Assembly: GCA_003223515.1 (NCBI GenBank)
Contig: QHVI01000056.1
Span: 1 to 58,741 of the forward strand
Source of the DNA: Candidatus Angelobacter sp. Gp1-AA117
GTDB lineage: Bacteria; Acidobacteriota; Terriglobia; Terriglobales; Acidobacteriaceae
DNA: 58,741 nucleotides
Reading direction: 5' to 3'
Of the stretch, positions 44,341 to 58,741 are shown one piece after another; within the stretch, counting starts at the first letter, position 1; every line of letters begins with the position of its first letter. The notes beneath the pieces were generated by a model. It ran no database searches. It was not told the origin of the DNA and saw only the letters and a program-made list of their open reading frames with translations. The position numbers and the translations under genes are program-made.

Positions 44341-44427
44341 CAGCAGTTAGACATTAGCAATTCATCATGTCCGGCGCAATTTTTTCCCATCACTATCGGT
44401 ATTCTCGCTTGAATCGAGTTGTATTGC

Positions 44428-44874
44428 TCATGCATGCTCGGTTTCGAGTTTAGTGATTTTTTCGACGCGGCGCTCGTGGCGTCCGCCGGCAAAAGATGTA
44501 GCGAGCCATTTATCGACGATCCTGACGGCTTCATCTTCCTGCAGGATGCGTGAGCCCAGAGCGAGCACGTTGGCGTTGTTATGCTCGCGGCTCATTTGCG
44601 CCTCATATTCGCTGCTGACATTGGCAGCGCGGATGCCATCGATTTTGTTAGCTGAAATAGCCATGCCGATTCCGCTGCCGCAGACCAGGATTCCAAGATC
44701 GGCGCGGCGGTCGCTTACGTCATGCGCGACTTTGGCGGCAAAGTCAGGATAGTCCACCGATTCGTTTGAGCTGGTGCCCTCATCCTGAATGGCGATCTGC
44801 TGCTGCTGGAGGTGCTGCTTGATCTTTTCTTTCAATTCATATCCGGCGTGGTCTGCGCCCAGGGCAATCTTCAT
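44428..44874 (-). CDS. rpiB: Ribose-5-phosphate isomerase B
   Basis: A 148-residue enzyme of the non-oxidative pentose phosphate pathway. The start MKIALGADHAGYELKEKIKQHL matches the conserved N-terminus. The catalytic Cys lies in LVCGSGIGMAISANKIDGIRAA, and the later HNNANVLALGSR motif is complete. A longer upstream frame is not conserved. A terminator of the preceding gene lies in front. Confidence 0.95.
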   Translation of the reverse strand: MKIALGADHAGYELKEKIKQHLQQQQIAIQDEGTSSNESVDYPDFAAKVAHDVSDRRADLGILVCGSGIGMAISANKIDGIRAANVSSEYEAQMSREHNNANVLALGSRILQEDEAVRIVDKWLATSFAGGRHERRVEKITKLETEHA

Positions 44875-44904
44875 AAAGGCATTGTACGGAACCAGCAGCA
44901 AATG

Positions 44905-44927
44905 AAAAAGGCCGGACGGACCGGCCT
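44905..44927 (-). terminator. Rho-independent terminator after the SmbP-like gene
   Basis: On the minus strand AGGCCGG, loop TCCGT, CCGGCCT, then five T. The 7-bp GC stem (44909-44927) lies 27 bp past the stop at 44954. Confidence 0.88.
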
Positions 44928-44953
44928 GGCCTGGCTCTGACGGCAAAGAGCGA

Positions 44954-45256
44954 TTACTTGTGTTCGTGCTTGTCTTCGTTCTTGTCGCCCGCCTTCATGC
45001 CTGCTTCCACGTGCTTGATGGCTTCGCGAGTGGCGGCAAGAGCCTTGGCGCGGTGTCCGCCTTTGTCATGCTTGGCCTGCTGAAGATGCTGCTCCGCCTG
45101 CTTCAGGGCATCAAGGGCAGCCTGCATGTGGGGCTGATCTTCGTCTTCAGCCACTACGGGTGTGGTGGTATTGGTGTTTGATTTGGCAAAGCCTGCGGGC
45201 AGGGCAAACATCCCCAGAACCACCGCCATAGCCATAAATTTCAGGAAACTCTTCAT
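44954..45256 (-). CDS. SmbP-like exported His-rich helical protein
   Basis: Start MKSFLKFMAMAVVLGMFALPAGFA, preceded by GGAGGAG. After signal removal about 75 residues remain, with a helix-turn-helix pattern HMQAALDALKQAEQHLQQAKHDKGGHRAKALAATREAIKHVEAGM and a terminal DKNEDKHEHK. The spacing of His and Ala/Leu matches the small metal-binding protein SmbP family (copper binding in Nitrosomonas). Probably a periplasmic metal buffer. Terminated by the hairpin at 44909-44927. Confidence 0.75.
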   Translation of the reverse strand: MKSFLKFMAMAVVLGMFALPAGFAKSNTNTTTPVVAEDEDQPHMQAALDALKQAEQHLQQAKHDKGGHRAKALAATREAIKHVEAGMKAGDKNEDKHEHK

Positions 45257-45439
45257 ATCGTGACTCCTCCCTTTCAGATTCACTGATGCAGAAGATCATC
45301 AAACCATGCAGCTTATCCTGTCAAGTTGTACCCCAGTAGATACAACACTAAAGACATAGGGCTATTGCCTCACTTGTTCCCAGCGCGGATTTCATCAGAT
45401 AATCACGCCAGCAGCCGTCCTGACTAAATTGAGGTAATC

Positions 45440-46252
45440 ATGGCCACCCCCACAACCGGAGAACCCCAGGCTTCTTCAACCATGCCCGGGTACAAATTCA
45501 TTCAGTTTGAAATCACCAGTTGCGTTGCCCGGCTCACGCTGAATCACGCACCTCACAACGTGCTCACCGTCCCCATGATGAAGGAGATGGCCGAGTCAAT
45601 CGAGAGCCTGAACGGGCGCGCCGATGTGAAGGCCATTCTGCTGCAATCTTCCCAATCCGCATTTTCCGCAGGTATTTCGCTTGAAGATTCGCGGCCGGAC
45701 CGCGTATTTCAGACGTTAGACGCCTTCACCCGCGTATTTCAGGCGATGGTGGATATTTCGAAACCGGTAATCGTGGTTGTGAATGGACCGGCGATCGGCG
45801 CAGGATCTGAACTGGTGGGCTTTGCCGATGTGGTGATTGCAACCCCCAAAGCCAAATTTGCACAACCGGAAGTTAAGCTGGGTGTATTTCCGCCGTTTGC
45901 CGCCGTGATGCTGCCGCAGTTGATTGGCCCCAAGAAGACCTATGAACTGATTCTGACGGGCGAGGCGCTTTCTGCGGAAGAGGCGCTACGCTTCGGCTTC
46001 GTCAACAAAGTAGTGCCTGAAGCTGAACTGACGACGCATGTAGAGTCGCTGGTCACCAGGATTTCTGAGTTCAGCGGCCCGGTATTGGAAGTAGCCAAGC
46101 GCGTGATCGGCAACTCGATGGGCCTGCCATTGAAAGAAGCCATGAAGAAGTCGCAGGACCTCTATCTCAATGAATTGATGAATCTGGAAGACGTCCAGGA
46201 AGGTCTGCGCGCCGTGATCGAGAAGCGCAAGCCGGTGTGGAAGAACAAGTAA
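45440..46252 (+). CDS. Enoyl-CoA hydratase family, cyclohexadiene-carbonyl-CoA hydratase-like
   Basis: A 270-residue crotonase-fold protein. Oxyanion-hole segments are SAFSAGISLED and GPAIGAGSELVGFADVVIATPKAKFAQPEVKLGVFPPFAAV. The LGVFPP.AAVMLP stretch and the shape after it resemble Dch hydratases of anaerobic aromatic breakdown more than fatty-acid enzymes; this is a similarity by eye. The Glu positions GSEL and QPEV are kept. No other aromatic pathway genes are nearby, so the substrate is unsure. Confidence 0.82.
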   Translation: MATPTTGEPQASSTMPGYKFIQFEITSCVARLTLNHAPHNVLTVPMMKEMAESIESLNGRADVKAILLQSSQSAFSAGISLEDSRPDRVFQTLDAFTRVFQAMVDISKPVIVVVNGPAIGAGSELVGFADVVIATPKAKFAQPEVKLGVFPPFAAVMLPQLIGPKKTYELILTGEALSAEEALRFGFVNKVVPEAELTTHVESLVTRISEFSGPVLEVAKRVIGNSMGLPLKEAMKKSQDLYLNELMNLEDVQEGLRAVIEKRKPVWKNK

Positions 46253-46454
46253 GCAGTCGGCACATAGCAATTGGCTTTTGGGCAAAGCCGAGCGCAGGGA
46301 AACTGGCCACAAGGCATGCGGGAAAGGACACTTCTACGTGCCAATTGTTCATTACCAGTTCAGCGGCTTGTAGCCAGGTTCAAAGATGTCCCGATCATTA
46401 TCATGCTTTCCATATTTCCCGTTTTATATTGGAAAGATTTTTGCTGGACTGACG

Positions 46455-46480
46455 ATAGCTAGCAGCCAGGAGCTGGAAGC
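46455..46480. repeat. AGCTA-type dispersed repeat
   Basis: ATAGCTAGCAGCCAGGAGCTGG lies directly before the next small gene and supplies AGGAGCTGG as a Shine-Dalgarno-like sequence, as at 33235. Confidence 0.6.
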
Positions 46481-46485
46481 TACTT

Positions 46486-46632
46486 ATGGAACGCAAATTT
46501 TTCTGGATGATCTTTATCGGGCTGAGTCTGCTGGCGGACTTTCTTTTGCCGCTGGTCTGGGGATTAGTGGCCAGCTTGCCCATCGCTGTCCTGAGCTGGT
46601 GGATTGCCTACCGGAGCGGCTGGTTTGAATAG
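46486..46632 (+). CDS. 48-aa membrane mini-protein
   Basis: Too short for standard ORF thresholds. MERKFFWMIFIGLSLLADF..., two hydrophobic helices (WMIFIGLSLLADFLLPLVWG and VASLPIAVLSWWIAY) and the tail RSGWFE. Closely similar mini-proteins ending in a WWIAYRS.WF motif are common in Acidobacteria. Function unknown. An SD-like AGGAGCTGG precedes it. Confidence 0.7.
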   Translation: MERKFFWMIFIGLSLLADFLLPLVWGLVASLPIAVLSWWIAYRSGWFE

Positions 46633-46639
46633 GGCAAAT

Positions 46640-46676
46640 AGCAATTTAGCTCTGGCCCTTGGCTTTTAGCTTTCGC
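46640..46676. repeat. AGCTA-type dispersed repeat
   Basis: AGCAATTTAGCTCTGGCCC and TTGGCTTTTAGCTTTCGCTC continue the same degenerate motif between two convergent genes. Confidence 0.5.
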
Positions 46677-46705
46677 TCAATCAAGTGAACACAAATTGCC
46701 AACTG

Positions 46706-47113
46706 CTATTTGCGATCTTTCAATCTCACCACAAATTTCAATCCTGACCAGATGTCGTCAATGGCGCAGATTTTGATGTCTACAAGGCCATGGCGCAAGC
46801 CGATGTCACGCACAACATTTTCATTCAGATCCGTCTTGATTTTGGAAGCGCCTTTGGGCCAGGAAATCCAGAGGGAGCCTTCCTGCTCCAGGTTTTTCTT
46901 CAGCTTCGGAAAGGTAGACTCCAGTTCAGCTTTGCCTTTGGTGAAGAACTGGATGAAGCCGCAGGGGCCTTTAAGCACCTTCAGGAGAGTTGCGTCTTCA
47001 GGCAGCGATCCCAATGTTTTGCGGTAATCTGAAGGCGGATTGCCAAGATAGACTTTGTGCCCCGGCTTGATGCCCAGCTTTTCGACAAGAGATCGTTTTG
47101 AGTATCCGGCCAT
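46706..47113 (-). CDS. DUF3052-type protein
   Basis: A 135-residue cytoplasmic protein, KLGIKPGHKVYLGNPPSDYRKTLGSLPEDATLLKVLKGPCGFIQFFTKGKAEL, then WISWPKGASKIKTDLNENVVRDIGLRHGLVDIKICAIDDIWSGLKFVVR. This is the family pattern of DUF3052: a Rossmann-like small domain with no assigned activity. Convergent with the mini-protein gene. Confidence 0.88.
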   Translation of the reverse strand: MAGYSKRSLVEKLGIKPGHKVYLGNPPSDYRKTLGSLPEDATLLKVLKGPCGFIQFFTKGKAELESTFPKLKKNLEQEGSLWISWPKGASKIKTDLNENVVRDIGLRHGLVDIKICAIDDIWSGLKFVVRLKDRK

Positions 47114-47156
47114 GTTGGTGAGCAGTATATAGCAAGCCTATTTACCGCAAATGACT

Positions 47157-48338
47157 CTAAGGGCGCGAAGGTGACAAGATCTTATCGAGAGCCCTTTCTA
47201 ACTGATTTAAGGCGTCCTTCACTGCTTCGGTTGCGATACCTACACCCATGCGGAAACGGCTGGGCGTTTCGAAAAATCTGCCGGGAACCACGCTGGTATC
47301 GAAATCGTTGCGCAGCATGGTGCAGAATTCTTCTGTAGTGCTGGTGCTCGTCTTGCCTTCTGCCGGGAGAGAGTTTTCCGCGCAGCCGAGGGCGGCTGCG
47401 CTCCACGAAGATTTTTCAGTACGCAGGCGGGGAAAGACGATGGTTCCGTATTCCGGCCAGAAGTAATCGAGATCGTTGCGCGAATCCAGAAAGTTCTTGA
47501 GCAATGCACGGTTGGTATCGAGCAGGGCTTTCATATGCGCGGAAATCTGATCGAGTTTAGAGAAAGCGATCACGCTCAACAGTTCAGCCGGATGAGCAAA
47601 GGTGGCGCCGTGCAGATCGTTGATATGCCACATGCGCTCAGCTATGTCAGAAGGGGCAAGAAGCCATCCACAGCGCAGGCCACTCAATCCATAGGCTTTG
47701 GTGAGGCTGTTGGTAATGATGAAGCGCTCGGGATCGAGATGGAAGGCAGTCTGTGGCTCCTGCTCAAAGAGCATTTCGCGATAGACCTCATCTACCACGA
47801 TGTAAGTATTTGTCTTGCGCGCCAGCGTGGCAACTTCTCCCAGCACTGGGTTTGGAATGAAGGCGCCGCTGGGATTGTGAAGGTTACAAATGACCAGGGC
47901 GCGAGTTCGTGGAGTGAGTTGGCGCTCAAGATCGGCCAGATCAAGAGCAAAGTTCATTTCTGCGGGACGGGCGAAGCGGCGGACCGTCAATCCTAAATAT
48001 TGCGCTACATCGAGAATCGGGCCATAGGAAGGCTGCTCGATCAGAACCTCGTCGCCGGGTTCAGTAATCGCGGCCAAAGCAAGGTAGTTGGCGAGCGATG
48101 TTCCTACGGCGCTGACCACGGATTCCTGGGGCACGCGGTAGCGGTCGGCAATGGCCTTCAGCAGAGGATCGTAGCCATAGATGCTGGGGCCGTTGATTTC
48201 GAGTTCCTCGATTTTCACGCCGAGCTCTGCCAGGGGCAGGCTGATCATGCCGCTGGTGGCCAGGTTGTACTTAGCGGCTAATTGGAGCTTGGCCCACTCC
48301 ATATACGGGGAACGCGCGGTGCTGCGGGAAACGTTCAT
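47157..48338 (-). CDS. PLP-dependent aminotransferase (class I/II) with an inserted segment
   Basis: A 393-residue fold-type I aminotransferase. NPSG in CNLHNPSGAF, PLP-lysine in ITNSLTKAYGLSGLRCGW (about 225) and the C-terminal PGRFFE...FRMGVG. The ATG overlaps the stop of the permease gene (ATGA). Between RLRTEKSS and TEEFCTMLRNDFDTSVVPGRFFE lies an extra stretch of about 25 residues encoded partly by a REP-like palindrome (47380-47401). Relatives normally go straight from the 'GT.VFPR' strand to 'FC..LR..fdv.vvPG'. The amino acid substrate is not readable. Confidence 0.88.
   Translation of the reverse strand: MNVSRSTARSPYMEWAKLQLAAKYNLATSGMISLPLAELGVKIEELEINGPSIYGYDPLLKAIADRYRVPQESVVSAVGTSLANYLALAAITEPGDEVLIEQPSYGPILDVAQYLGLTVRRFARPAEMNFALDLADLERQLTPRTRALVICNLHNPSGAFIPNPVLGEVATLARKTNTYIVVDEVYREMLFEQEPQTAFHLDPERFIITNSLTKAYGLSGLRCGWLLAPSDIAERMWHINDLHGATFAHPAELLSVIAFSKLDQISAHMKALLDTNRALLKNFLDSRNDLDYFWPEYGTIVFPRLRTEKSSWSAAALGCAENSLPAEGKTSTSTTEEFCTMLRNDFDTSVVPGRFFETPSRFRMGVGIATEAVKDALNQLERALDKILSPSRP
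47380..47401. repeat. REP-like palindrome inside the aminotransferase gene
   Basis: GCGCAGCCG (47380-47388), AGGG, CGGCTGCGC (47393-47401): perfect 9-bp arms. It is related to the palindrome at 22188-22211 and lies in frame inside coding sequence. Confidence 0.75.
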
Positions 48339-49711
48339 GCTCGTGAGATCCACCTCCAAATGTAGTACACAGGCACGCCGGTGGCGAGAATGGCCAGGCC
48401 GATCAAGGTATTTTTGGGAAACTGATAAATGGTATTGATGACCACGGCGGCGCAGGCGGTGCAGAAAAGCGCGGTAGTAATAGGGTGTCCGGGCATGCGG
48501 GTGCGCGGAGTGCCCAGGCCGCGATGGCGAAGCACAAAGAGGCAGCTCGCAGAAAGGCCGAAAAAGATCCAGTCCATGGAGGTGACGTAGTTGAGGATGT
48601 GTTCGAAGCTGCCGGAGAGCAGGATGACGATGGTCCATAGGCTCTGCACGGTGATGGCAACTACGGGAACGCGGGTGCGTGGGTGCAGCCAAGCAAGCTG
48701 GCGGAAGAAGACTCCGTCGTCAGCCATGGCGAAATAGACCCGGGGCGCGGTGAGCACACTCTGGCTCAGAAATCCCAAGGTAGAAATGGCGATACCCAGG
48801 GCGATCATAATGGCGCCACGATTGCCCATGGCAGCGCGCATGACGGCTGATGCGGGAGTATGCGTTTGCGCAAGACCGGTTGCTCCCAAGGCGCGAAGGC
48901 AGATGAAGTTCACCGAGGTGTAAAGCAGGGCTACACCCATGACGCCAAGAATCAGGGCCCGCGGCAGATCACGTCGCGGTTCTTTCAATTCTCCGGCAAC
49001 GAAACAGGCGGTTTGCCATCCACCATAAGCGAAGAGTACAGGCACCATGGCAGCCCCAAAAGATGAAAGCAAGCCGAATGAAAGAGGCTGGTCTGCTACG
49101 GGCCGGAACGAGAGATGCGGGGCATGCACCAGCAGTGCTCCAGCAATCACCAGCAGCGCGATAGCCAGAATCTTCAGCAGCATGAGCGCGCTCTGCACGT
49201 TGCTGCCGCTCTTCACGCCCAGACAATTAGCAATCGTAAGGAGAGTCAGCGTGAGGATAGCGACGAGCCATTCTGGAACCGGCCATCCGGTGAGTTCGAG
49301 GAAATAGCGGGAGAAGGTGACGGTGACGGCCGCCATGCCTCCCGTCTGGATCACCAGCAGCAGCACCCATCCATAGAGGAAGGCCACAAGCGGGTGATAA
49401 GCCTCGCGGAGGTAGGCGTATTGTCCTCCGACTTGAGGGAGACGATCAGCCAGTTCAGCCCAGATGAATGCCCCGGTAAGGGCGATGACTCCTCCGGCAA
49501 CCCATGCACCCAGAATCAGCGCGGGCGTGTGTACCTGCTGGGCGACAACATAGGGATTTATAAAGATACCAGCGCCGACAGTGCCGCCCATGACCAGCAT
49601 GGTGGCGTCAAAGAGGCCGAGGCGCCGGGCCAGGGGCGAGCTTTGCTCCGGTTGTGCCTGAGGAGAATTCAAAACAGTTTCCGCATAGTTCCGGCACCAA
49701 TATAATCGCAA
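48335..49711 (-). CDS. APC-family amino acid permease
   Basis: About 445-458 residues with twelve helices. N-terminal GLFDATMLVMGGTVGAGIFINPYVVAQ is the APC substrate-binding signature; later VAGELKEPRRDLPRALILGVMGVALLYTSVNFICLRALG. No ATG is available: the frame opens with TTG at 49711 and another TTG at 49672 (LNSPQ) is also possible. Coupled by ATGA overlap to the aminotransferase, so import and transamination of one amino acid are probably linked. Confidence 0.88.
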   Translation of the reverse strand: MRLYWCRNYAETVLNSPQAQPEQSSPLARRLGLFDATMLVMGGTVGAGIFINPYVVAQQVHTPALILGAWVAGGVIALTGAFIWAELADRLPQVGGQYAYLREAYHPLVAFLYGWVLLLVIQTGGMAAVTVTFSRYFLELTGWPVPEWLVAILTLTLLTIANCLGVKSGSNVQSALMLLKILAIALLVIAGALLVHAPHLSFRPVADQPLSFGLLSSFGAAMVPVLFAYGGWQTACFVAGELKEPRRDLPRALILGVMGVALLYTSVNFICLRALGATGLAQTHTPASAVMRAAMGNRGAIMIALGIAISTLGFLSQSVLTAPRVYFAMADDGVFFRQLAWLHPRTRVPVVAITVQSLWTIVILLSGSFEHILNYVTSMDWIFFGLSASCLFVLRHRGLGTPRTRMPGHPITTALFCTACAAVVINTIYQFPKNTLIGLAILATGVPVYYIWRWISRA

Positions 49712-49737
49712 TTTTGATTTAGCCGAAGGAGAGCAAT

Positions 49738-50748
49738 ATTAACATCCTGATTATTGGCGGTACCCGGAACCTGGGTTTATCCATCGTCGAACTGCTGCAC
49801 GAGCGCGGGCACAAGATCACGATCTTCAATCGCGGCCTCACGCGGGCGAAGCTGCCTGCGGGCGTAGAGCGCATCTATGGCGACCGCAGCCAGAAGCAAG
49901 ACATGGAGCAGGCGCTTGGCTCGCGCACCTTTGAAGCGGTGATCGATACCACCCTTTACACCGGAACAGAAGCGCTTGCCGCAGTCGACGTGCTCAAAAA
50001 CAGGACTGGGCATTTCCTCTTTATCAGCACCGGACAGGTGTACCTGGTGCGCAAGAAGATAAAGCGGCCCTTCCGTGAAGAGGATTATGAGGGTGAACTG
50101 ATCAAGGCGCCTCCGATCAAACGCGAATCTGATTATGAGAACTGGCTCTACGGGATGAACAAACGGGAAGCCGAGGATCACCTGTTCCAGGCATGGAAGG
50201 ATTTCAGATTCCCGGTGACATCGCTGCGCGCCCCCATGATCCATGGAGAGCGCGACCATTACCATCGCCTGCTGAACTATGTAAGAAGGCTGCAGGATGG
50301 CGGCCTGTTCGTGATTCCGGTTGAGCCTACTCCGCTGGTGCGGCATGTTTATGTGGAAGACGTAGCCAGCGCGGTGGTCTGCCTGGCTGAATCGGGCCAA
50401 GGCAAGGGACGCGCTTACAATCTTTCACAGGATGAAACCATCTCAGCCGAATACATGATCCGCATGATGGCTGACATGCTGAAGTCAGAGTTTGGAATGA
50501 TTGCCGTTCCACGCGTCAGGCTGGAGAAAGCCGGTTTGCTGCCGGCATGCTCTCCGTTTCATGGAAAATGGATGTCAGAGCTGGATAATATCCGCAGCAA
50601 GAAAGAACTGGGCTTAATCTATACGCCACTGGAGGCATACCTGGAGAAGATCGTGCGGTATTACGTCAGCCATCCGGAATTGCAGCCTGAAGGGTTTGAA
50701 GAAGCGCGGGAGAAAGAAAAGGAGATGGCGCAGAATGCCTTTGACTGA
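49738..50748 (+). CDS. NAD-dependent epimerase/dehydratase with an apparent ATT start codon
   Basis: The Rossmann motif INILIIGGTRNLGLSIVELLHERGH begins directly after AAGGAGAG, yet no ATG, GTG or TTG lies between the preceding stop (49720-49722) and that motif. The likely start is ATT at 49738, five bases after the binding site. An internal ATG at 49903 would delete the NAD-binding loop. The full protein has 336 residues with GDRS, YGMNKREAED (the YxxxK catalytic pair) and TSLRAPMIHGERD. It resembles NAD-sugar epimerases or isoflavone-reductase-like enzymes. Substrate unknown. Confidence 0.82.
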   Translation: MNILIIGGTRNLGLSIVELLHERGHKITIFNRGLTRAKLPAGVERIYGDRSQKQDMEQALGSRTFEAVIDTTLYTGTEALAAVDVLKNRTGHFLFISTGQVYLVRKKIKRPFREEDYEGELIKAPPIKRESDYENWLYGMNKREAEDHLFQAWKDFRFPVTSLRAPMIHGERDHYHRLLNYVRRLQDGGLFVIPVEPTPLVRHVYVEDVASAVVCLAESGQGKGRAYNLSQDETISAEYMIRMMADMLKSEFGMIAVPRVRLEKAGLLPACSPFHGKWMSELDNIRSKKELGLIYTPLEAYLEKIVRYYVSHPELQPEGFEEAREKEKEMAQNAFD

Positions 50749-50869
50749 TTTCCGGAGATGAATTCACCAGCGAACCATCGTTTTCACTTGTTGAGGATGG
50801 TTGCGGGGCTTATATTGGCGGAAGCATTCAGGCATTTTGAAATCGAAACACTCCACTTAAGGATGACGC

Positions 50870-51250
50870 ATGAAATTTCTTTCAAGCTGGGAAGGAAATG
50901 CTTATTTCCTCCTTCGTATTGTTTTCGGATTTTTGTATACATGCCACGGACTGCAGAAGTTATTTCTTCCAGGCCTCCTGCATGGAGAGAAGGTCCCTGC
51001 CGGATTCAATATCTTCTTTATCGGTGCGGTAATCGAATTAGTGGCAGGCGTGCTTATATTTTTTGGGTTTTTCACGCGTTGTGCCGCCTTTGTCGCCAGT
51101 GGCGAAATGGCCGTCGCTTACTTCAAAGTACATGCCCCACATGGCTTCTTTCCCATTGTGAACCACGGCGAACTGGCAGTGATCTACTGCTTTGTTGCGC
51201 TCTACATCGCGTGCCGTGGGGCAGGACGGCTTGGCATCGACAAATCCTGA
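50870..51250 (+). CDS. DoxX-family membrane protein
   Basis: A 126-residue four-helix protein. YFLLRIVFGFLYTCHGLQKLF (HG.QKLF motif) and GAVIELVAGVLIFFGFFTR.AAFVASGEMAVAYFKVHAP are typical of DoxX proteins, which are linked to respiratory quinone or sulphur metabolism. AAGGATGA precedes the ATG. Confidence 0.9.
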   Translation: MKFLSSWEGNAYFLLRIVFGFLYTCHGLQKLFLPGLLHGEKVPAGFNIFFIGAVIELVAGVLIFFGFFTRCAAFVASGEMAVAYFKVHAPHGFFPIVNHGELAVIYCFVALYIACRGAGRLGIDKS

Positions 51251-51256
51251 GCTTCC

Positions 51257-52254
51257 ATGCCGCGAAAGAACAGGCTGGAATGCCGTGTCACATGGCAGCA
51301 GGTGGCGGCATTCCGGCTGCATCGCCATTCTCTGCTTCAACGGAACAATCCTGATTTAGTCACCATCTGCCGGAACGTCTGTGGTATTCAGGCGCAACTG
51401 ATGGCCTCCGCCGAGATTGCCTGTGGTGTGCGCAGTGCGAAATCTCATGTTCAGGATCTCCATTCTGCATTATGGAAGCAGCGCACCCTAGTGAAGACCA
51501 CCGCCATGCGGCAGACGCTGCATCTGCTGCCCACAGACGATTTCTATATCTATAAAGCCGCAATCCAGCGCAGCCGCATGGCCGCACTGATGCGCGTGAT
51601 GGCCAGAATCGAAGTCAACCGGCGGCAGATAGACGTGATGAACCAGGCGGTCATGGATGCGCTCAGCGCGGGGCCTCTGACTAAGAATGAATTGATCGAA
51701 CGCATCAGGCACACCATTACTGGAGGACTGAAGACCTGGATGGAGCTTTCCTGGAGCGTGTTTCGGCCGGCGGTGGTTGAAGGGCTGATCTGTTACGGGC
51801 CTGACCGCGGACGGGAGGGAACATTCGTGCGGGTCGATCAGTGGTTGCCGAAGCAGAAGCAGATCGACGAAAAGGAGGCCCAGCAGAAATTATTCCGTTG
51901 CTGCCTGAAGATCTGAGAACATTGCAGAAAAGCCAGCTCGATGCTCCTGTGGTCCGCCTGCTCCCGCATTTCGATCCTTACATGCTGGCCCATGCCGATA
52001 AAGCCCACCTGGTGGAGGCGCGCTATTACAAACGCGTCTACCGCAACCAGGGATGGCTTTCTCCGGTGATACTGTTGAATGGAAGAGTTGCAGGAGTGTG
52101 GGCCTATACGCGGCGAGGAAAGGCACTGGCGCTGAACGTGGAACCTTTTGAAAAGCTGCCCAGGAAGGTGCGTTCCATGCTGGAGCAGGAAGCGGAGATC
52201 ATTGCGCGGTTTATGGGACTGAGCGTGTCTGAGATCCACTACAAAACTGCTTGA
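51257..52254 (+). pseudogene. Disrupted winged-helix DNA-binding domain gene (HTH_42-like)
   Basis: Two fragments of one family lie in different frames. 51257-51916 encodes the N-terminal part (RVTWQQVAAFRLHRHSLL..., CGIQAQLMASAEIACGVRS, RQTLHLLPTDDFYIY) and stops after KLFRCCLKI. The second frame, ending at 52254, carries the C-terminal part (LPEDLRTLQKSQLDAPVVRLLPHFDPYMLAHADK...LNGRVAGVWAYTRRGK). Expected middle sequence (about 50 residues around a YGPAT..DF.WW motif) is missing at about 51870-51915, so the gene has an internal deletion with frameshift. Some intact relatives act in DNA interstrand-crosslink repair. Confidence 0.72.
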
Positions 52255-52359
52255 GGTTGTGAGACGTGCTTCGTACGTCGCTACAGCTAGCACTTTCACT
52301 ATTGGCTGTAACTTTGCGGAATTTTATAAAATGGATATTTTCGAGGAGAAGGGTCACTG

Positions 52360-52950
52360 ATGAAATCCATTGGGAAGATCAGCCTATTGCTTGTTGGACT
52401 TATATTCGCAGGATGCAGCAGTAAACCAACGGAAAATCCTGGCTCCGGCGTCACCGTGGGGCCGAACAGCGCTGCAACACCGGCCGTTAACGCAAGCACT
52501 GAAGACAATTCCTTCAATGCCTGCTCGCTGTTGAGCGCGGCGGACGCGGAGCAGATCATGGGCGCTCCCATGCATTTATCGGCGATCAAGACGCAGCCCA
52601 CCACCTGCCGCTACGATGAGGTCACACCCAAACCAAACGCGCTTGGCCCGGCAATCCTGTCGCTGACCGTGGTGCAAAGCAAATCGGCTGAAGACGAAAA
52701 CAGGGCTTGGGCAAGCATCAAAGAAACACGGCACCTGCAGGCGGGAGAGAAGAACGTACAGCCCATCAGCGGAATCGGTGAAGAGGCTTATTTCACCGGC
52801 AACACGCAGAAAGGCAAAGTGGGAATAGCCGCCGTGGTGGCGCGCAAAAGGAAATTACACTTCGCGCTCGATTCGCAGGTGCTGGAGTACAGGGCGTCGC
52901 CGGACGTGATGAAGAGTATTGCGAAGAGGATTGCGGATGGACTCAAATGA
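52360..52950 (+). CDS. Lipoprotein, DUF3558-like
   Basis: A 196-residue lipoprotein: MKSIGKISLLLVGLIFAGC gives lipidated Cys19, followed by a Ser/Pro/Asn-rich linker. The folded part begins NACSLLSAADAEQIMGAPMHL, the 'CSLLT..D...ilG.p' pattern of DUF3558-type or small secreted Cys proteins, with a second Cys in TTCRYDE. Function unknown. Its 3' end overlaps the convergent GNAT gene and the GATCGGG repeat. Confidence 0.8.
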   Translation: MKSIGKISLLLVGLIFAGCSSKPTENPGSGVTVGPNSAATPAVNASTEDNSFNACSLLSAADAEQIMGAPMHLSAIKTQPTTCRYDEVTPKPNALGPAILSLTVVQSKSAEDENRAWASIKETRHLQAGEKNVQPISGIGEEAYFTGNTQKGKVGIAAVVARKRKLHFALDSQVLEYRASPDVMKSIAKRIADGLK

Positions 52951-53455
52951 TCGGGAGATCGGGGGATCTGATGATCGGGTCATCGGGAATTCCATTGCTG
53001 GTGGCCATCTGGAAGTACATGGCATCCTCGCCAGTCTTTACAAAGCCCAGCCGTTCGTAGAGATGAATGGCTGGGTTGGTGCGCAGAACCTGCAGGCGAA
53101 CAATTTTCCCCGCTTGAGTTGATTTCTCTACCAGATCGCCCACAAGTTTTGCACCGATCCCATGGTTCCGAAGTTCCGGCAGTAGGGCTATCTCAATGAG
53201 GTGCGAGCTTTCCGGTTCAGTCATCACCATGATTCGGCCCGCCGGCTGACCGTCGAGAAGAATGATCTGGTGATCGGCGTTTGGGTAAGCCTGATCGTAC
53301 CAGCGTTTTTGCGCGTTGAACTGCATGCGCAGAAAGACTTCCTGCTGTGTAGTGTCCCAGCCAAACGGAGCAATCTCGTGCAGGCGCGTGCTGGCGTAGA
53401 GTTTAAAGATGAAATCCTGATCGTCTGGAGAGTAAGGACGAAGCTCTATTTTCAT
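52943..53455 (-). CDS. GNAT-family acetyltransferase
   Basis: A 170-residue acetyl-CoA-dependent transferase. Motif A is IEIALLPELRNHGIGAKLVGDLVEKSTQAGKIVRLQVLRTNPAIHLYERLGFV, with the acetyl-CoA loop RNHGIG and the terminal LYERLGF. The last residues (DDPIIRSPDLPII) are encoded by the GATCGGG repeat, so the C-terminus has likely been extended by repeat growth. The target is unknown. Confidence 0.88.
   Translation of the reverse strand: MKIELRPYSPDDQDFIFKLYASTRLHEIAPFGWDTTQQEVFLRMQFNAQKRWYDQAYPNADHQIILLDGQPAGRIMVMTEPESSHLIEIALLPELRNHGIGAKLVGDLVEKSTQAGKIVRLQVLRTNPAIHLYERLGFVKTGEDAMYFQMATSNGIPDDPIIRSPDLPII
52948..52992. repeat. GATCGGG octamer repeat across two gene ends
   Basis: GATCGGGA, GATCGGGG, GATC-TGAT, GATCGGGT and CATCGGGA in a row. 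The array overlaps the 3' ends of two convergent genes and encodes part of the GNAT tail. Confidence 0.7.
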
Positions 53456-53552
53456 GGGTTGGCTCTGATTGTAAGCGATAGGCGGATTACGCCAAGACCA
53501 GGGCCGCAGCCAGGGTCCTGATAGAATAATATTCAGACCACATCAACGGCGC

Positions 53553-53642
53553 GGAGAGGTGCGTGAGTGGTTGAAACGAGCCGCCTCGAAAGCGGCCATA
53601 CCTGAAAGGGTATCGGGGGTTCAAATCCCTCCCTCTCCGCCA
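53553..53642 (+). tRNA. tRNA-Ser (anticodon CGA)
   Basis: Acceptor GGAGAGG (53553-53559) pairs with CCTCTCC (53632-53638), then G73 and an encoded CCA. The anticodon stem GCCGC/GCGGC encloses CTCGAAA, giving anticodon CGA (53587-53589) that reads UCG. A long variable arm (ATACCTGAAAGGGTAT) and the T loop GGTTCAAATCC confirm a class II Ser tRNA. The 90-nt length is normal. Confidence 0.97.
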
Positions 53643-53811
53643 GATGATTTCTCCATTTGATTCATTGGGTTGCCTCCATACCCTCCCATCGTTTTGATCA
53701 CGATTCACAGCCTAAGCCGGTCATTTTTGATGCTTAGGTTCCAGGTCGAAAATTCGTGCCGACGGTCGTTTCTGGATAGATTCTGAGGGGCTGATATCAT
53801 AGTGAAGCGTG

Positions 53812-53843
53812 AAAAAGGACCGGCATTCCATCACCGGCCCTTT
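53812..53843 (-). terminator. Rho-independent terminator after the haloperoxidase gene
   Basis: On the minus strand AAAGG/GCCGG pairs with CCGG/TCCTTT around a 10-nt loop with one mismatch, then TTTTTC. It lies 24 bp beyond the stop at 53867. Confidence 0.8.
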
Positions 53844-53866
53844 GTTGTTGAACAGAATTGTTTTGG

Positions 53867-55678
53867 TTACTGATTTCCGCCGATCACAACCGTGGTTCCG
53901 TCGAACTTCGTGAGCGTCCATCCGCTGAAGGCTTCCGGATATGTAGCGGCGTGGTCCTGCAACACACTGATGGCGACGTTTTCACCTATCGTCATGCCCA
54001 GCATATTGCCGCCCACCCGGCTGTGAATTCCAGACCAATTGCGGCCTTCGGCGACATTGGCAGCCAGTTTGTTCAGTTCACCAAGGACAGTAAGATTTGT
54101 ATCCGTGGTGTTGACCAGCGACAGACCGTCTGTGGACGGCTGTACCGGCTGCACTGGCCAGGGTTTGGGATCGCTGGGTGTACCTACAGCGAACACAGCT
54201 TTGAGCATGGTCACGCATGCGCCGGCGCTGAACGCGTGGCCTGAAGGCGTATCCGGGTGAGAAGGCGATCCGCCGTTCAACTCCTGAGGATGCAGGAAGC
54301 TACCGGTGACGCCCATGCCGCGTTTTACGTTGAGTTGCCGGTTGCGCTCAAAGATCAGCGGCAGCACCGCAGAGTTGAGCAGATCAGAATGGATGTTGGG
54401 GTTGAGGGAGAAGCGATTGGTTAGCACGCCATCGACAAGATTGCCGAACTGCTCCGGCCTGATTTTGCGATGGACATACCACTTTCCATAAAACGCATGG
54501 GCTTCTGCTTTATGCACGTTGCCAAGCAGTCCTTCCATCCAGGCGGTGCTGAAGGTGCTGAAGCCGTTGATTCTGGGATCACTGGTATAGGGACTTGCAG
54601 CGTCCAGTCCTACCCCTAAGCCTGACAGGATGATGGCAGCGCGGAAATAAAGCGAGTAGATAGTGTCTGATGCTGCGAGGTTGCCCAAATCGCGACCGTT
54701 GCGCACAAAGCGCGGCACAGGATCAAAGACGTTGGGCGATACAGCGGGATTTCCTCTCTCAACGATGAGGTACTCATTGAGGTTGGTCATGTAATCCACG
54801 CCTGTACCTGGACCGGTGAGCACCTGCCCCGTATTCGGATCGGCAACCTGTGCCCGAGTGCGGATTTTCGGAACAAAGGTTACGCCATCGAGCTGATGCG
54901 TTTGATAGAGGACTTGCGAAAGATAAGGACCATCGGCAGCGCCAACGAATGGATAACGGAAGAGATTCTGTGCCGTGACAGGTTTTATGCCGCTAAAGCC
55001 GGACATCCTGTTCATGTCGTCCACTGCCTGCCCGATCAATGGGTTCGATGCATAATCACTGAAAGGTACATCGCGCAGGTATTCCCAGTAGAGTTCCGCC
55101 TGTTCTGCTGCTCCGCCCGCGCTGTTAATCGAACCCGGAATGAAATTTGTCTTCATGACGGGAGAGTCAGAGCCTTCAATCTGAAACACCAGCGGGCTCA
55201 AAGGGCCAGCCAGTTTTCCCGGCCCGCCTGCGGGGACCGCATGAAAAGCGTCCTGGCTACCAGCTTCAAGTGCCGCCAGGAGCTTGCGGTAATCGTTGGG
55301 GTTTACCAGGCCATTCGCATCCAGCGGAAAGGTCTTGCTGAAATTACCTTCGAAATGCGAACCCACGTACGTTTCCTCGTCTCCATTAGTGGGATGAGGA
55401 AAATCATGGATCACAGCCTGCCTTTGCGCCTTGGCTGCATCCTTGCGGATCTGTTCAAGCTGGTTTCCTCTCTGAACTGGTCCGGCTTCTGCAGGACCGA
55501 TTTCGGCGGCTTCGGCTGTTTGCACCAGAGCGCCAGGAACGATGGCGCCTGCAGTGAGCGCTACAGCGCCGAAACCTGCGGTCTTCAGGAATCCACGTCT
55601 GCTCGCCGGGAGAACTTCTTTGGTTGCCGGATTACCGTTTATCTCAGAAGAGTTTGCGGTAAATGTCTTATCCTTCAT
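53867..55678 (-). CDS. Tat-exported vanadium-haloperoxidase-like PAP2 protein
   Basis: Start MKDKTFTANS... chosen because GGAGG lies eight bases before it. The 603-residue protein opens with a twin-Arg signal (SRRGFLKTAGFGAVALTAGAIVPG), so it is exported folded with its cofactor. Vanadate/phosphate-site motifs: KWYVHRKIRPE (about residue 399), PDTPSGHA (about 478) and SGIHSRVGGN with the metal-binding His (about 552). These match bacterial vanadium-dependent haloperoxidases of the acid-phosphatase superfamily. Whether it oxidises halide or hydrolyses phosphate is open. Monocistronic with its own terminator. Confidence 0.88.
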   Translation of the reverse strand: MKDKTFTANSSEINGNPATKEVLPASRRGFLKTAGFGAVALTAGAIVPGALVQTAEAAEIGPAEAGPVQRGNQLEQIRKDAAKAQRQAVIHDFPHPTNGDEETYVGSHFEGNFSKTFPLDANGLVNPNDYRKLLAALEAGSQDAFHAVPAGGPGKLAGPLSPLVFQIEGSDSPVMKTNFIPGSINSAGGAAEQAELYWEYLRDVPFSDYASNPLIGQAVDDMNRMSGFSGIKPVTAQNLFRYPFVGAADGPYLSQVLYQTHQLDGVTFVPKIRTRAQVADPNTGQVLTGPGTGVDYMTNLNEYLIVERGNPAVSPNVFDPVPRFVRNGRDLGNLAASDTIYSLYFRAAIILSGLGVGLDAASPYTSDPRINGFSTFSTAWMEGLLGNVHKAEAHAFYGKWYVHRKIRPEQFGNLVDGVLTNRFSLNPNIHSDLLNSAVLPLIFERNRQLNVKRGMGVTGSFLHPQELNGGSPSHPDTPSGHAFSAGACVTMLKAVFAVGTPSDPKPWPVQPVQPSTDGLSLVNTTDTNLTVLGELNKLAANVAEGRNWSGIHSRVGGNMLGMTIGENVAISVLQDHAATYPEAFSGWTLTKFDGTTVVIGGNQ

Positions 55679-56224
55679 CAGGACTGCCTCCATACTGTTG
55701 TTGGTGAGTGAAGGTTTGGAACCAGGCTGGCTCATCATCCCCAGACAAGGCGCTTACGAAGCCAAAAAGTGCTGTTGGCTCCGCGATGAGGTAAAAGTCT
55801 CTGAAACGCTTCGCGTTACGAAACCATTCCAATCACATGTCGTAAGACAACACTTCACCTTGGGCGCATACAATCGTTGCTGCGCAACACCGGGACAGTT
55901 TTTCAATGTGGGACGCTAATGAGAAACGGTGAGAAGAATCAAATGGCAGATGTTACAGGCTTACACTCATCAGCGTCTGCTTGCTAACTATTTCGTAGTA
56001 GCTGGATTAAAACAGTAGTTGGAGAGAAATGCTACCGCTTTTAACTGGCGATTTATTAATTTTCTATTAAATTAGTCAGAGGAGTAATCCAGAAATGACG
56101 AAAGATAAGCATTCATTCAACATGAAACACAAGACGCGACAGCGATGATCCAAGAGTGCTGCCCTGTCACTTTCAATTTGAGAGCATTCAGCGCAGCCAT
56201 AAAATGATGTTATCGCGATCGGCA
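55679..56224. other. 546-bp intergenic region, no clear gene
   Basis: It is AT-rich around 56040-56075. A 17-codon frame from 56095 (MTKDKHSFNMKHK...) has GGAG upstream but no other support. The upstream promoter of the haloperoxidase is expected in the left part. No known RNA is recognised. Confidence 0.4.
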
Positions 56225-57352
56225 TCAGCCGGCTTTTTGTGTCTCCCATGACATGAAGGGTGAAGCTGCGACCGCTGCGGCTACATCAAGAGGTTCCTGA
56301 TTTTCTTTGAGGCTTCGGTAATATTTGATGTATTCAGAAAATGCTGGAAACAGACCTTCGCGCTTTTCCAGCGGCTGGGTAGAACCTTCGGGTGCGGTAA
56401 TGAAAGCGCAGAATTTCTCCAGCGTCCGGGCTTGCGGATTGAACTGATCGAGCCACAGGAACTGTCCCTGCTCGTTGATCTCAAGAAACCACCATTGGCC
56501 ATCATGATCCACGGCGAAGTCAACCGAGCCAAAGCAGATGTTTGCCCTGCGGGCAAATTCCAGTATTCCTTTCTCAACATCGGGCGGAGTTGGAACGATC
56601 TCCAACTGGATATTGCCCAAACCCGCATCCTGCCTCCAATCCAGCGCCTTCTTGGCATTGAGCAGGGCAAATGAATAGATGCGGCTGCCCATGAGCACCA
56701 TGCGAATGTCGAACTGCTTGTCTACCATCTGCTGATAAATGGCGGGCGCATAGGTAAGGACCTCGTCCGTTGGCAGGCGCTCTGGCGTTAATTCGAATGT
56801 CTCCGTCACAGATACGCCACCTTCGTTCTCGCGCTGCCAGACGTGCGGAGTGAAACCTTTGCCTATCGTCCTGTCCGGACTGCCGGCCATGAATCCGCGA
56901 ATACGGCTGGGCGAATTGGACATCAGAGTGCCCGGGATACGCAAACCGCAGGCCTGCGCCAGTTGCAGTTGCACTGCCTTGTTGTGAATGAAACGCGCCC
57001 CTGAAAACCTGTTGATGCACCAGACGGGGAGGGTTTCCAGCGTGTAGGCAATGGAATGATAGAAGGAGCGATACTCCACCTCGGCAAATTTTTTATCAGC
57101 TTCTACTACGCTGGGATGATGCGTGGGATGGCCCGGCCGGCGAATCCAGATTGCATCGCCCGGTTCTACGGTGAACGATCCCAGTTCCACCTTCATCTGT
57201 TTCGTCTGTGTATCCCAGAGAAGAGAAGACTGCTGCTGCTCAGCCCACGAAAGTCCGTCCCAGCAAGCCACCTCAAATCCAGCTTGCTCCAATGCCCATT
57301 TGACCGGCCACGTATGGTTTTCTTTTGGATGCGCAAAAATGACCACCTTCAT
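56225..57352 (-). CDS. ATP-grasp peptide ligase, graspetide-type (MdnC/MvdD-like)
   Basis: Start MKVVIFAHPKENH supported by AGGAGG five bases upstream. The 375-residue protein has an N-terminal pre-ATP-grasp domain (1-115) with WIRRPGHPTHH, INRFSGARFIHNKAVQLQLAQACGLRIPGTLMSNSP, and an ATP-grasp core with the phosphate and Mg sites in GSVDFAVDHDGQWWFLEINEQGQFLWLDQ. The E-I-N-E-QGQFLW motif is that of the ligases that form ester or amide rings in microviridin-type graspetides. It is the last gene of a small operon whose first two genes encode related leader peptides. An extended N-terminus (MVRQEDT) is also possible but lacks a binding site. Confidence 0.85.
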   Translation of the reverse strand: MKVVIFAHPKENHTWPVKWALEQAGFEVACWDGLSWAEQQQSSLLWDTQTKQMKVELGSFTVEPGDAIWIRRPGHPTHHPSVVEADKKFAEVEYRSFYHSIAYTLETLPVWCINRFSGARFIHNKAVQLQLAQACGLRIPGTLMSNSPSRIRGFMAGSPDRTIGKGFTPHVWQRENEGGVSVTETFELTPERLPTDEVLTYAPAIYQQMVDKQFDIRMVLMGSRIYSFALLNAKKALDWRQDAGLGNIQLEIVPTPPDVEKGILEFARRANICFGSVDFAVDHDGQWWFLEINEQGQFLWLDQFNPQARTLEKFCAFITAPEGSTQPLEKREGLFPAFSEYIKYYRSLKENQEPLDVAAAVAASPFMSWETQKAG

Positions 57353-57407
57353 TGTGTCCTCCTGGCGAACCATGCCCGCTCAGCGGTTCAGTGACGTGCA
57401 GCGATTG

Positions 57408-57436
57408 CAGGGACCGCCGGACAGACGGCGGCCCTG
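57408..57436 (-). promoter_or_regulatory. Hairpin between precursor gene and ligase gene
   Basis: CAGGGCCGCCG pairs with CGGCGGTCCCTG (minus-strand reading; one bulged base) around a 6-nt loop, 10 bp after the precursor stop. It lacks a long T-run, so it may act as a processing or stability element that keeps precursor mRNA more abundant than ligase mRNA. Confidence 0.55.
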
Positions 57437-57446
57437 CCAGTGTTCA

Positions 57447-57605
57447 TTAGTCATCATCACCGTCGGAGGCGAGGGTGCAGAAGGTGGTGGTCACGTCATT
57501 GTGCGGATTTGTGAAAAATCCACCGGTAATAGCCTCAAGCTCCTGCTGCGTCAAATCGCGAGCGAGTTGACGGCAGAGCACTCGATTGTCCTGTTTCTTC
57601 GGCAT
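57447..57605 (-). CDS. Graspetide-like precursor peptide 1, 52 aa
   Basis: Strong binding site AAGGAG, six bases before ATG. The 52 residues split into a leader (MPKKQDNRVLCRQLARDL..., with LTQQELEAITGG) and a core after Gly-Gly, beginning FFTNPHNDVTTTFC and ending in SDGDDD. Core Thr residues (VTTTF.T) and terminal Asp residues are the ring partners expected of graspetides, where Thr/Ser/Lys side chains join Asp/Glu. It lies 94 bp upstream of the ATP-grasp gene. The GG suggests leader removal by a C39-type protease encoded elsewhere. Confidence 0.82.
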   Translation of the reverse strand: MPKKQDNRVLCRQLARDLTQQELEAITGGFFTNPHNDVTTTFCTLASDGDDD

Positions 57606-57677
57606 AAGTTCTCCTTTTGAATTGTTCAGTTCGTATTGTGGTTGAGTGGGTGTTGCACTTTACGATCGATCCATTCA

Positions 57678-57827
57678 TTAAGCAGGATCGCAGCCAAAAT
57701 CGACAATGGGACCGTTCTTGTGCAGCGAGGTACCAAAACATCCGGTGCCTTGCGCACCTCCAACCTTGCTCACTTCTTCAGGTGTCAACTCGCGGGCACC
57801 TGCACGGCTCAGTACTCGATTGTGCAT
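57678..57827 (-). CDS. Graspetide-like precursor peptide 2, 49 aa
   Basis: AGGAG five bases before ATG. Leader MHNRVLSRAGARELTPEEV...VGG is clearly related to precursor 1 (both NRVL.R...AR.LT..E...GG). The core begins AQGTGCFGTSLHKNG and ends GCDPA: it has two Cys, one Lys, three Asp/acidic-type positions and few Thr. It may be processed by the same ligase at different residues, or be a second kind of peptide sharing the leader. Too short for standard gene finders. Confidence 0.78.
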   Translation of the reverse strand: MHNRVLSRAGARELTPEEVSKVGGAQGTGCFGTSLHKNGPIVDFGCDPA

Positions 57828-58101
57828 GTTGCTCCTGGTTTGTTTTAACTTATGAATGAAGGAAGATCAGGATTGCTTTGTAACCATCCTGAGTTGCTGG
57901 TGAAAGATATAAGGCTGTTACAGCGCCGGTGATGGGTTGCCGATTCCTTCGCCGTATCGCTGAACGACGTACGGTGCAGCTTGCAGAAGAAACCGATACA
58001 GCCAATAGAAGTCCAGCTTAAAAAAAATTGTTCTCTGGTTCAATACTCTGACAGCAATTTCTCTGAATTTCTTTAGTACATCGTCCCCAACGCTGCTGAT
58101 C
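57828..58101. other. Promoter region of the peptide operon and gene remnant
   Basis: This 274-bp gap should hold the promoter of the two-precursor operon; no -10/-35 pair is convincing. A minus-strand frame through 57918-58100 (reading FFKLDFYWLYRFLLQAAPYVVQRYG) has no start of its own and may be a decayed gene end. Confidence 0.4.
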
Positions 58102-58530
58102 TTACATCTCTTCACTAAGTATCTTGTGGCGGTCCACAAAGTCATACGAGGCCAGAGCATTCAAACCAGCCACCGATCTGCGGACCGCAAGCTGCAGGTC
58201 AGACTGCGGGCTGTCACAGGGCGGCCCCTGGCTCGCGCCTTGCCCATTCTTCTCCACGCGCATGGTCACATAGCTTTTGCGAGTGAGGCCATAAAGAAGC
58301 TCGTAGTAGGCGTCGCCGGGCTTAAGGTCGGCGAGGGAGTAGCAACCCAGCCCGCCAATCAGCAGAACGGCAGGAAAGTGTCCCTGAGTTTTCGGCTTGG
58401 TTACGATAACTCGGTAAGAGGCTCCGTCGATGGTTACGGAGCGATACAGCACCTCTGCGCCAGGGGCGGGTTCTTCGGCGAACAGCGTGGAACAAAATAG
58501 CGATACCAGGATCAACAGCAGCGGCTTCAT
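58102..58530 (-). pseudogene. Truncated alpha/beta hydrolase, N-terminal fragment
   Basis: 142 residues with a signal peptide (MKPLLLILVSLFCSTLFAEE) and the N-terminal half of an alpha/beta-hydrolase fold: YRVIVTKPKTQGHFPAVLLIGGLGCYSLADLKPGDAYYELLYGLTRKSYVTMRVEKNGQGASQGPPCDSPQ. Relatives continue past the conserved 'YDFVD' to the nucleophile elbow, but this reading stops right after SYDFVDRHKILSEEM, before any GxSxG. It is therefore a broken gene, unless the stop is a sequencing error. Confidence 0.68.
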
Positions 58531-58604
58531 CAGTTAAGGGTAACAAACGAAGTACGCCGGTAGAGTAGGAGAGAGGGCAACACAGTAGTGCGACCCACTC
58601 TCCC

Positions 58605-58650
58605 CTCGTCGAACCCGACGTGCAGATTTCCCGCATCGGGCTCTCCTGAA
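58605..58650 (-). other. Possible group II intron RNA remnant
   Basis: On the minus strand GAGCCCGATGCGGGAAATC and TGCACGTCGGGTTCGACGAG fold as a double hairpin (58612-58618 with 58636-58642, inner TGCGG/CTGCA). This wording is typical of conserved RNA segments of bacterial group II introns near their reverse-transcriptase gene. No such gene is in the window, so only an edge or remnant can be claimed. Confidence 0.4.
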
Positions 58651-58741
58651 AACTTCTTGTCATTGGCGTGCACAGGCAGTTGCGCGGTGTTGAATCCTAC
58701 AACTCCACTAATCCCATTTTCTGGAATTGCTGGTAGTAGGT

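Follow-up and report, generated by a model that had tools for sequence, protein, structure and literature searches.

A probable graspetide cassette with two precursor peptides in Candidatus Angelobacter, and its acidobacterial relatives

The cassette and its surroundings

The DNA analyzed here (58,741 nucleotides of contig QHVI01000056.1 from Candidatus Angelobacter sp. Gp1-AA117; hereafter, the window) carries on its minus strand a compact cassette in which two short precursor genes, w2 and then w1, are followed by the gene of an ATP-grasp ligase (Table 1). The genes are separated by 72 bases (w2/w1) and 94 bases (w1/ligase). An earlier, sequence-only reading had proposed two short genes with strong ribosome binding sites and a ligase with the motif EINEQGQFLW, and we found both open reading frames behind Shine-Dalgarno sequences and the motif in the minus-strand ligase gene. 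It had further described related leaders ending in Gly-Gly and a Thr-rich core with an Asp tail; the leaders are indeed related, the Gly-Gly end fails for w2, whose leader runs to GGA under the double-glycine rule, and the core description fits w1 only, the core of w2 being different. The ligase most likely starts at 57352 and not at 57373, because AGGAGG lies 5 nt upstream and because of the alignment with relatives.

Table 1. Features of the cassette and the basis of each assignment
Feature	Position	Strand	Basis
Precursor peptide w2, 49 aa	57678..57827	-	ORF; precursor-family HMM 2.6e-15 (w2 is one of the eleven seeds)
w2 leader MHNRVLSRAGARELTPEEVSKVGGA	57753-57827	-	
w2 predicted core QGTGCFGTSLHKNGPIVDFGCDPA	57681-57752	-	
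w2 ribosome-binding site AGGAG	57832..57836	-	sequence
Precursor peptide w1, 52 aa	57447..57605	-	ORF; precursor-family HMM 1.7e-16 (w1 is one of the eleven seeds)
w1 leader MPKKQDNRVLCRQLARDLTQQELEAITGG	57519-57605	-	
w1 predicted core FFTNPHNDVTTTFCTLASDGDDD	57450-57518	-	
w1 ribosome-binding site AAGGAG	57611..57616	-	sequence
Graspetide ATP-grasp ligase, 375 aa (382 aa if read from 57373)	56225..57352	-	NCBIfam, PDB relatives, tree
Ligase ribosome-binding site AGGAGG	57358..57363	-	sequence

Inside the cassette, we recognized no transporter, protease, or regulator. A promoter scan resembled shuffled sequence (1 match against a mean of 2.2), and a terminator scan stayed within the shuffle range (5 against a mean of 3.8, standard deviation 2.2). 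The two flanking genes were considered as cluster members and excluded because neither has a tblastn match in the five loci compared (L015, L016, L018, L019, and L140; L, G, and C numbers are our handles for loci, genomes, and contigs). The downstream gene (53867-55738, minus strand) encodes a 623-aa protein with a twin-arginine signal by TIGR01409 and a PSGH motif, which we take to resemble that of a vanadium haloperoxidase/PAP2 enzyme; Pfam gave no support for such an assignment. The upstream 142-aa ORF (58102-58530, minus strand) resembles part of an esterase (EstD model positions 146 to 205 of 421; 18.3 bits, far below the cut-off) and may be a truncated gene adjoining the cassette.

Is the cassette more than a chance arrangement, and is it still in use? 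Across window positions 44001 to 58741, only the cassette itself (56225-57821) shows DNA similarity to the next relative, L016. Against L016, dN/dS is 0.078 and 0.062 for w1 (which has two near-identical copies there), 0.265 for w2 (with a homologous core), and 0.098 for the ligase, at dS values of 0.9 to 1.7. By these comparisons, the cassette is more than chance and all three genes are under purifying selection. The cassette has no transporter and w1 has an odd number of cysteines, as might be expected of a decaying copy that has fallen out of use. We consider decay extremely improbable, given the low dN/dS of precursors and ligase at this divergence and the retention of the w1 core in the two further copies in L016.

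The ligase and its relatives

As the sequence-only reading had suggested as a check, the window ligase was compared with profile models, and it came out on the graspetide side. It scores 157.8 bits with TIGR04187, 136.5 with MvdD, 109 with MvdC, and 63.2 with the grasp-with-spasm model, against 13.8 bits with RimK (cut-off, 143.4), and hence does not belong to the RimK type. At the same time, it lies below the curated cut-off of all four graspetide models and fails the equivalog tests for MvdC and MvdD (cut-offs of 425 and 475 bits, respectively); a Pfam search returned no family over cut-off. All 27 aligned ligases, the window ligase included, match the four graspetide models at an E-value of ≤0.001. 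The nearest solved structures to the family profile are CdnC (PDB accession number 7mgv; 5.2e-32) and the ATP-grasp ligase 5ig9 (8.7e-31), which we take to be MdnC. Residues K165, R217, R240, D278, E291, and N293, presumably active-site or catalytic residues of the ATP-grasp fold, are invariant in the 27 sequences.

The ATP-grasp superfamily includes enzymes that add free amino acids or small molecules to peptides, such as RimK, which adds Glu, and PGM1 in the pheganomycin pathway. A ligase of this kind would elongate the peptides rather than close rings, and weak RimK matches do occur in 18 of the 27 aligned ligases (best, 1.1e-8), far behind the graspetide models. However, the difference between the RimK and graspetide scores of the window ligase argues against elongation, and conserved Thr/Ser donors and Asp/Glu acceptors flanking a variable loop (see below) would be pointless for the addition of a tail. 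We therefore regard elongation as quite improbable.

Ligase relatives were found at an E-value of ≤1e-10 in 7 of the 61 genomes searched. The genus holds 13 ligases in six of its nine genomes; three of them are in the window's own genome, one in the window and two on contig C194. A phylum sample of 396 genomes contained 13 with a match at 1e-15; 11 of these lie outside the genus, with identities of 23 to 34%. A scan of named genome contigs with two conserved peptide patterns returned 77 loci; Acidobacteriaceae/Terriglobia MAGs were closest, followed by a large Legionella-type set and then by actinobacteria and others.

For the tree, we used 99 of the 117 ligase hits, leaving out 5 of fewer than 180 residues, 6 duplicates, and 7 of fewer than 225 residues. 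The 16 close acidobacterial ligases form a clade (100/98), which four more acidobacterial rows extend to a group of 20 (100/100), and these 20 lie inside a 70-row clade (100/99) that also holds the Legionella type. On long branches, two rows from Pseudoxanthomonas (L081) attach weakly to the acidobacterial 20 (89/82), and one acidobacterial row, L028, is placed on the Legionella side. The suggestion that the cassette may represent a new subgroup gains support from both results, the scores far under the cut-offs of all named models and the separate clade of close acidobacterial ligases. A polyphosphate kinase 2 gene lies directly downstream of the ligase in L018 (10416-11309; PF03976, 8.7e-72), and an ORF in the same place in L017 (8285-9178) begins alike.

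Precursor family, core pattern, and paired cysteines

The precursors have a constant leader, RVLxRxGARELTxxE..V.GG, ahead of varied cores. A profile HMM built from eleven seed peptides and iterated a second time found 83 precursor matches in eight of the nine genomes of the genus, with 34 in G004 and 25 in G006, and matched 3 of 297 genomes of the phylum sample. In 15 acidobacterial sources, which had been fetched by their ligases, a precursor adjoins the ligase in every case. From these sources, 72 frames were kept with the leader pattern itself as the filter, so that the double-glycine leader ending seen in 65 of the 72, w1 and w2 included, is partly so by construction. In double-glycine leaders cut by C39 peptidases, the rule is L at position -12, E at -8, a hydrophobic residue at -4, G or A at -2, and G, A, or S at -1. 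In 13 chosen alignment rows, R-V-L-x-R and A-R are invariant and thus conserved beyond this rule. A search for similar leaders in relatives, another check named by the sequence-only reading, accordingly found a conserved leader shared by acidobacterial precursors. In the Legionella-type and neighbouring loci (L052-L093, L095, L105, and L116), 39 of 45 carry related leaders, with one to three precursors each. Reading the 72 frames by eye, we saw no PFFARFL-type leader (Phhx(1,2)h) and no TxKYPSD core, and the family does not fall in microviridin group 1.

Precursors occur both in arrays and apart from ligases. L017 has 12 and L018 has 14 frames before one ligase. Ligase-distant precursors are found in the window's own genome (two, on C185 and C139) and in G003, G004, G005, and G006, with no ligase within the stretches fetched. 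The combination of dispersed precursors with few ligases is a prochlorosin-like layout. A w2-type core stands alone in G003 (L140) with no ligase nearby, which makes the modification of w2 by the window ligase less sure. Some frames (L017 11870-12133 and L023 3345-3722) look broken, with the leader start missing or with the core out of frame with its leader. Such frames beside intact relatives are a sign of array turnover. The lone precursor of G007 (L022 10816-11097, on contig C6) has a leader ending in TGD, not GG; departures from the double-glycine rule are seen in a few leaders of other genomes as well.

Could the small genes encode ordinary class II bacteriocins of the double-glycine kind, left untouched by the ligase? 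Family models do not name the precursors, and their best matches are weak ones to double-glycine bacteriocin leaders (TIGR03949, 0.0012; PF10439, 0.039); moreover, some precursors have no ligase nearby. Against this stand the adjoining ligase in 15 of 15 sources, all of them fetched by their ligases, and the leader conservation beyond the C39 rule in the 13 chosen rows. We regard unmodified bacteriocins as very improbable.

The cores provide the donor and acceptor residues that such a ligase would join. Having read the cores, we wrote the pattern [TS]x[TS]xx[TS] - loop - [DN]x[DE]. With the type B loci set aside, it fits 35 of 47 distinct cores; in 300 trials, shuffled cores fitted on average 1.04 times and at most 4 times. 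The loop between the two arms spans 3 to 9 residues, except in four members in which an internal D-P-D/E cut the pattern match short. The w1 core, TTTFCT-LAS-DGD-DD, fits the family form TxTxCT-loop-DGD, and w1 is thus a short-loop member of the family rather than an isolated oddity. Twelve of the 47 cores fall outside the pattern, among them that of w2 (GTSLHKNGPIVDxxCDP). The 14 type B cores (L021 and L025) share a penultimate Asp and contain no cysteine; the ligases that accompany them form one clade (100/100). Seven of the 72 frames, which the leader pattern does not fit, were omitted from the core and cysteine counts (one in L022, two pieces in L023, and one each in L024, L025, L046, and L049). 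Cores of the Legionella-type and neighbouring loci often end in D...D..DW.

An ATP-grasp ligase of the MvdC/MvdD/SAV_5884 kind is thus encoded beside a leader and a core with Ser/Thr/Lys donors and Asp/Glu acceptors. The graspetide layout proposed from sequence alone holds up: neither a RimK-like ligase nor small-gene relatives devoid of leader and core conservation was found, because the ligase groups with graspetide ligases and the relatives keep the leader and patterned cores. Judged from its sequence, assignment of the cassette to the graspetide type is well supported.

The cysteines of the cores come in pairs. Among the 61 distinct cores, 18 have no cysteine, 3 have one, 37 have two, and 3 have four; the three odd cores are w1 and its two L016 copies, the single cysteine of w1 breaking the pairing. 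After clustering at 65%, 33 of 34 cores have an even count (shuffle mean, 17.8; none of 20,000 shuffles reached 33), as do 21 of the 22 clustered cores that bear cysteine. Because the shuffles ignore the relatedness of paralogs, the argument for pairing rests on paired losses, a held-out set, and a control. Both cysteines are lost together in L020_9565 compared with its array neighbor L020_9199, and also in L018_6725, while the second cysteine has moved in L023 and L024. In the held-out cores, which come mostly from the dispersed set and were cut by hand (L144, whose sequence is identical to that of L139, was left out, as was a second, weak frame of L134), the count is even in 16 of 16 cores and 10 of 10 families (P = 0.0031); two L132 frames in this set are not true orphans, since the contig ends 16 bases after the second. 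In the control, the Legionella-type and neighbouring loci (including a few non-Legionella loci, with core limits set by a loose pattern), cysteine occurs in 12 of 54 cores, and its number is even in only 5 of the 12. Of the omitted frames, those of L022 and L024 would hold two core cysteines, the L025 piece one, and that of L046 none; in L023 and L049, the frames are broken or reach N.

Of the 37 two-cysteine cores, 29 have their first cysteine within the donor arm and the other beyond the acceptor pair; the C194 core MRTLTACTFDEQFGKDGDIGEC is a two-cysteine member of the family. We predict that the paired cysteines form a disulfide between the arms, besides the ester rings, with w1-type cores as the exception. 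A dispersed precursor family (L137, L141, L143, and L145) has a four-cysteine core resembling GACxxDPVTCxVxSGDCSDVPPxCLGQ; it is kept in G004, G003, G006, and G005, and the fetched stretches hold no ligase.

Export, proposed pathway, and relation to known systems

The window's own genome has a single full C39 peptidase-ABC transporter, on C194 (779 residues, 1.0e-35), and a second, short C39 match on C113 (190 residues). The C194 transporter opens a second graspetide cluster, in the order transporter, precursor, ligase, four precursors, ligase. Because the sole full C39 exporter of the genome lies in this cluster, the window peptides are most likely exported in trans by the C194 transporter. 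Ligase or precursors occur in seven genomes of the genus. Six of these gave one or two C39 matches at an E-value of ≤1e-10 (with a second match in G004 and G005), and in each of the six at least one match sits in a graspetide cluster. The seventh, G007, which carries a ligase and the precursor with the TGD leader, has no C39 transporter at this threshold. As a control, 30 further genomes from the genus and the family were searched; five of them have a C39 match, none better than 4.9e-22. Leaders following the double-glycine rule and a C39 ABC transporter in the genome (absent from G007) place the precursors among the double-glycine (C39) peptides. Directly after the second graspetide cluster (L015 11487-14641; G000:C194) lie genes for a BlaI/MecI-type repressor and for a protein with weak similarity to BlaR1; they may form a regulator that responds to stress or to peptides.

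We propose, with high confidence, that the window holds a minimal graspetide cassette of an acidobacterial family in which the ligase closes rings in the precursors, the products leave through a C39 exporter, and most members form a disulfide. The ligase would recognize the constant leader part RVLxRxGARELTxxE of w1 and w2 and use ATP to phosphorylate Asp/Glu residues in the acceptor arm at the C terminus (DGD; in relatives, also the Glu of GEC). Thr/Ser residues of the N-terminal donor arm (TxTxCT) would then attack, probably giving two to three nested macrolactones, and the rings would hold the two arms together as a hairpin around a variable loop. Once modified, the peptide would be cut after GG or GA and exported by a C39-peptidase ABC transporter, for the window peptides presumably that of C194 acting in trans. 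Outside the cytoplasm, the two cysteines of most members, typically one per arm, may oxidize to a disulfide. The secreted product may serve in competition or protease inhibition.

We also considered a wider, combinatorial system, to which we give about even chances. Here, one to four leader-guided ligases per genome would act in cis and in trans on a stable set of up to 34 precursors dispersed over the genome, to give double-stapled products that combine ester rings made by the enzyme with a disulfide formed after export and that share one C39 exporter, and the lone cysteine of w1 would form a covalent dimer or pair with another thiol.

The same chemistry could serve another role, with the peptides acting as protease inhibitors, as do microviridin and plesiocin, or as signals rather than as antagonists. 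Microviridins and plesiocin are potent serine protease inhibitors according to the part of PMC13097080 available to us. Moreover, the cores are conserved, not hypervariable, between the L017 and L018 arrays (dN/dS of 0.089 for cores and 0.115 for leaders; 9 of the 12 L017 genes have a usable partner). However, C39 export and many stable cores per genome fit antagonism or a chemical repertoire at least equally well, and we regard an inhibitor or signal role as a real possibility with somewhat less than even chances.

Among the closest known systems is Gra-7 of Legionella pneumophila, a group 8 graspetide with two precursors (Gra-7A/B) per ATP-grasp ligase, each dehydrated threefold in E. coli; in the text available, cutting by the C39-type LahT150 worked for precursor A and failed for B (PMC9576775). 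The window cassette resembles it in having two precursors and one ATP-grasp ligase. Legionella-type ligases, to which that of Gra-7 may belong, share the 70-row clade with the acidobacterial ones, at about 29 to 33% identity in the Legionella rows of our alignment, and go with a related RVL...A...GG leader, whereas Legionella-type and neighbouring cores differ in their frequent D...D..DW end and in their cysteines (42 of 54 without any, the rest unpaired). Microviridin and chryseoviridin ligases (5ig9; CdnC, 7mgv) are homologous to the window ligase family, but their PFFARFL leader and TxKYPSD core have no counterpart in the 72 frames, and the window cassette has one ligase. A hairpin of donor and acceptor arms around a length-tolerant loop, as we propose here, is described for fuscimiditide and the graspimiditides of group 13 in the available parts of PMC12291112 and PMC13001092; our family differs from these in its leader and paired cysteines, and no methyltransferase was seen among the few neighbors scanned unsystematically.

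Among the graspetide surveys, PMC8939145, as far as its text was accessible, lists 174 precursor families, finds that roughly every second precursor has the Phhx(1,2)h leader motif, and places C39 transporters first among the associated genes; neither "acidobacter" nor "legionell" occurs in its main text. The available part of PMC13097080 adds 19 groups to 24, four of the new groups with a neighboring protease or C39 exporter, and these 19 may contain the acidobacterial family unnamed; its introduction has no disulfide among secondary graspetide modifications. A few acidobacterial clusters of group 13 are reported in PMC13001092, the one open-licence paper found to mention graspetides together with Acidobacteria, and PMC11118758 describes Acidobacteriota as RiPP rich in ocean metagenomes, with graspetides unnamed in the text available. 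In the open-licence literature, taken without supplementary files and partly in excerpt, we found no description of acidobacterial or disulfide graspetides with this leader or core. If true, a cystine-plus-ester peptide would carry a modification unnamed among the secondary ones in the introduction of PMC13097080.

Our analysis adds to the sequence-only reading the precursor arrays, dispersed copies, constant leader, paired cysteines, and a single exporter that probably serves several clusters. Soils are rich in acidobacteria, few of whose natural products have been characterized. Relatives of the window cassette carry up to a dozen or more precursor genes per ligase, and most of the predicted products look disulfide-ready. 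In prochlorosins, which are lanthipeptides, few enzymes serve tens of precursors that share one leader and are arrayed as well as scattered over the genome; the layout is similar and works alike, but enzyme and chemistry are different, and the acidobacterial peptides are not members of that class. With 61 distinct cores behind one kind of leader, the acidobacterial family would be the graspetide counterpart of the prochlorosins, and the division of labor between leader and core thus becomes directly testable.
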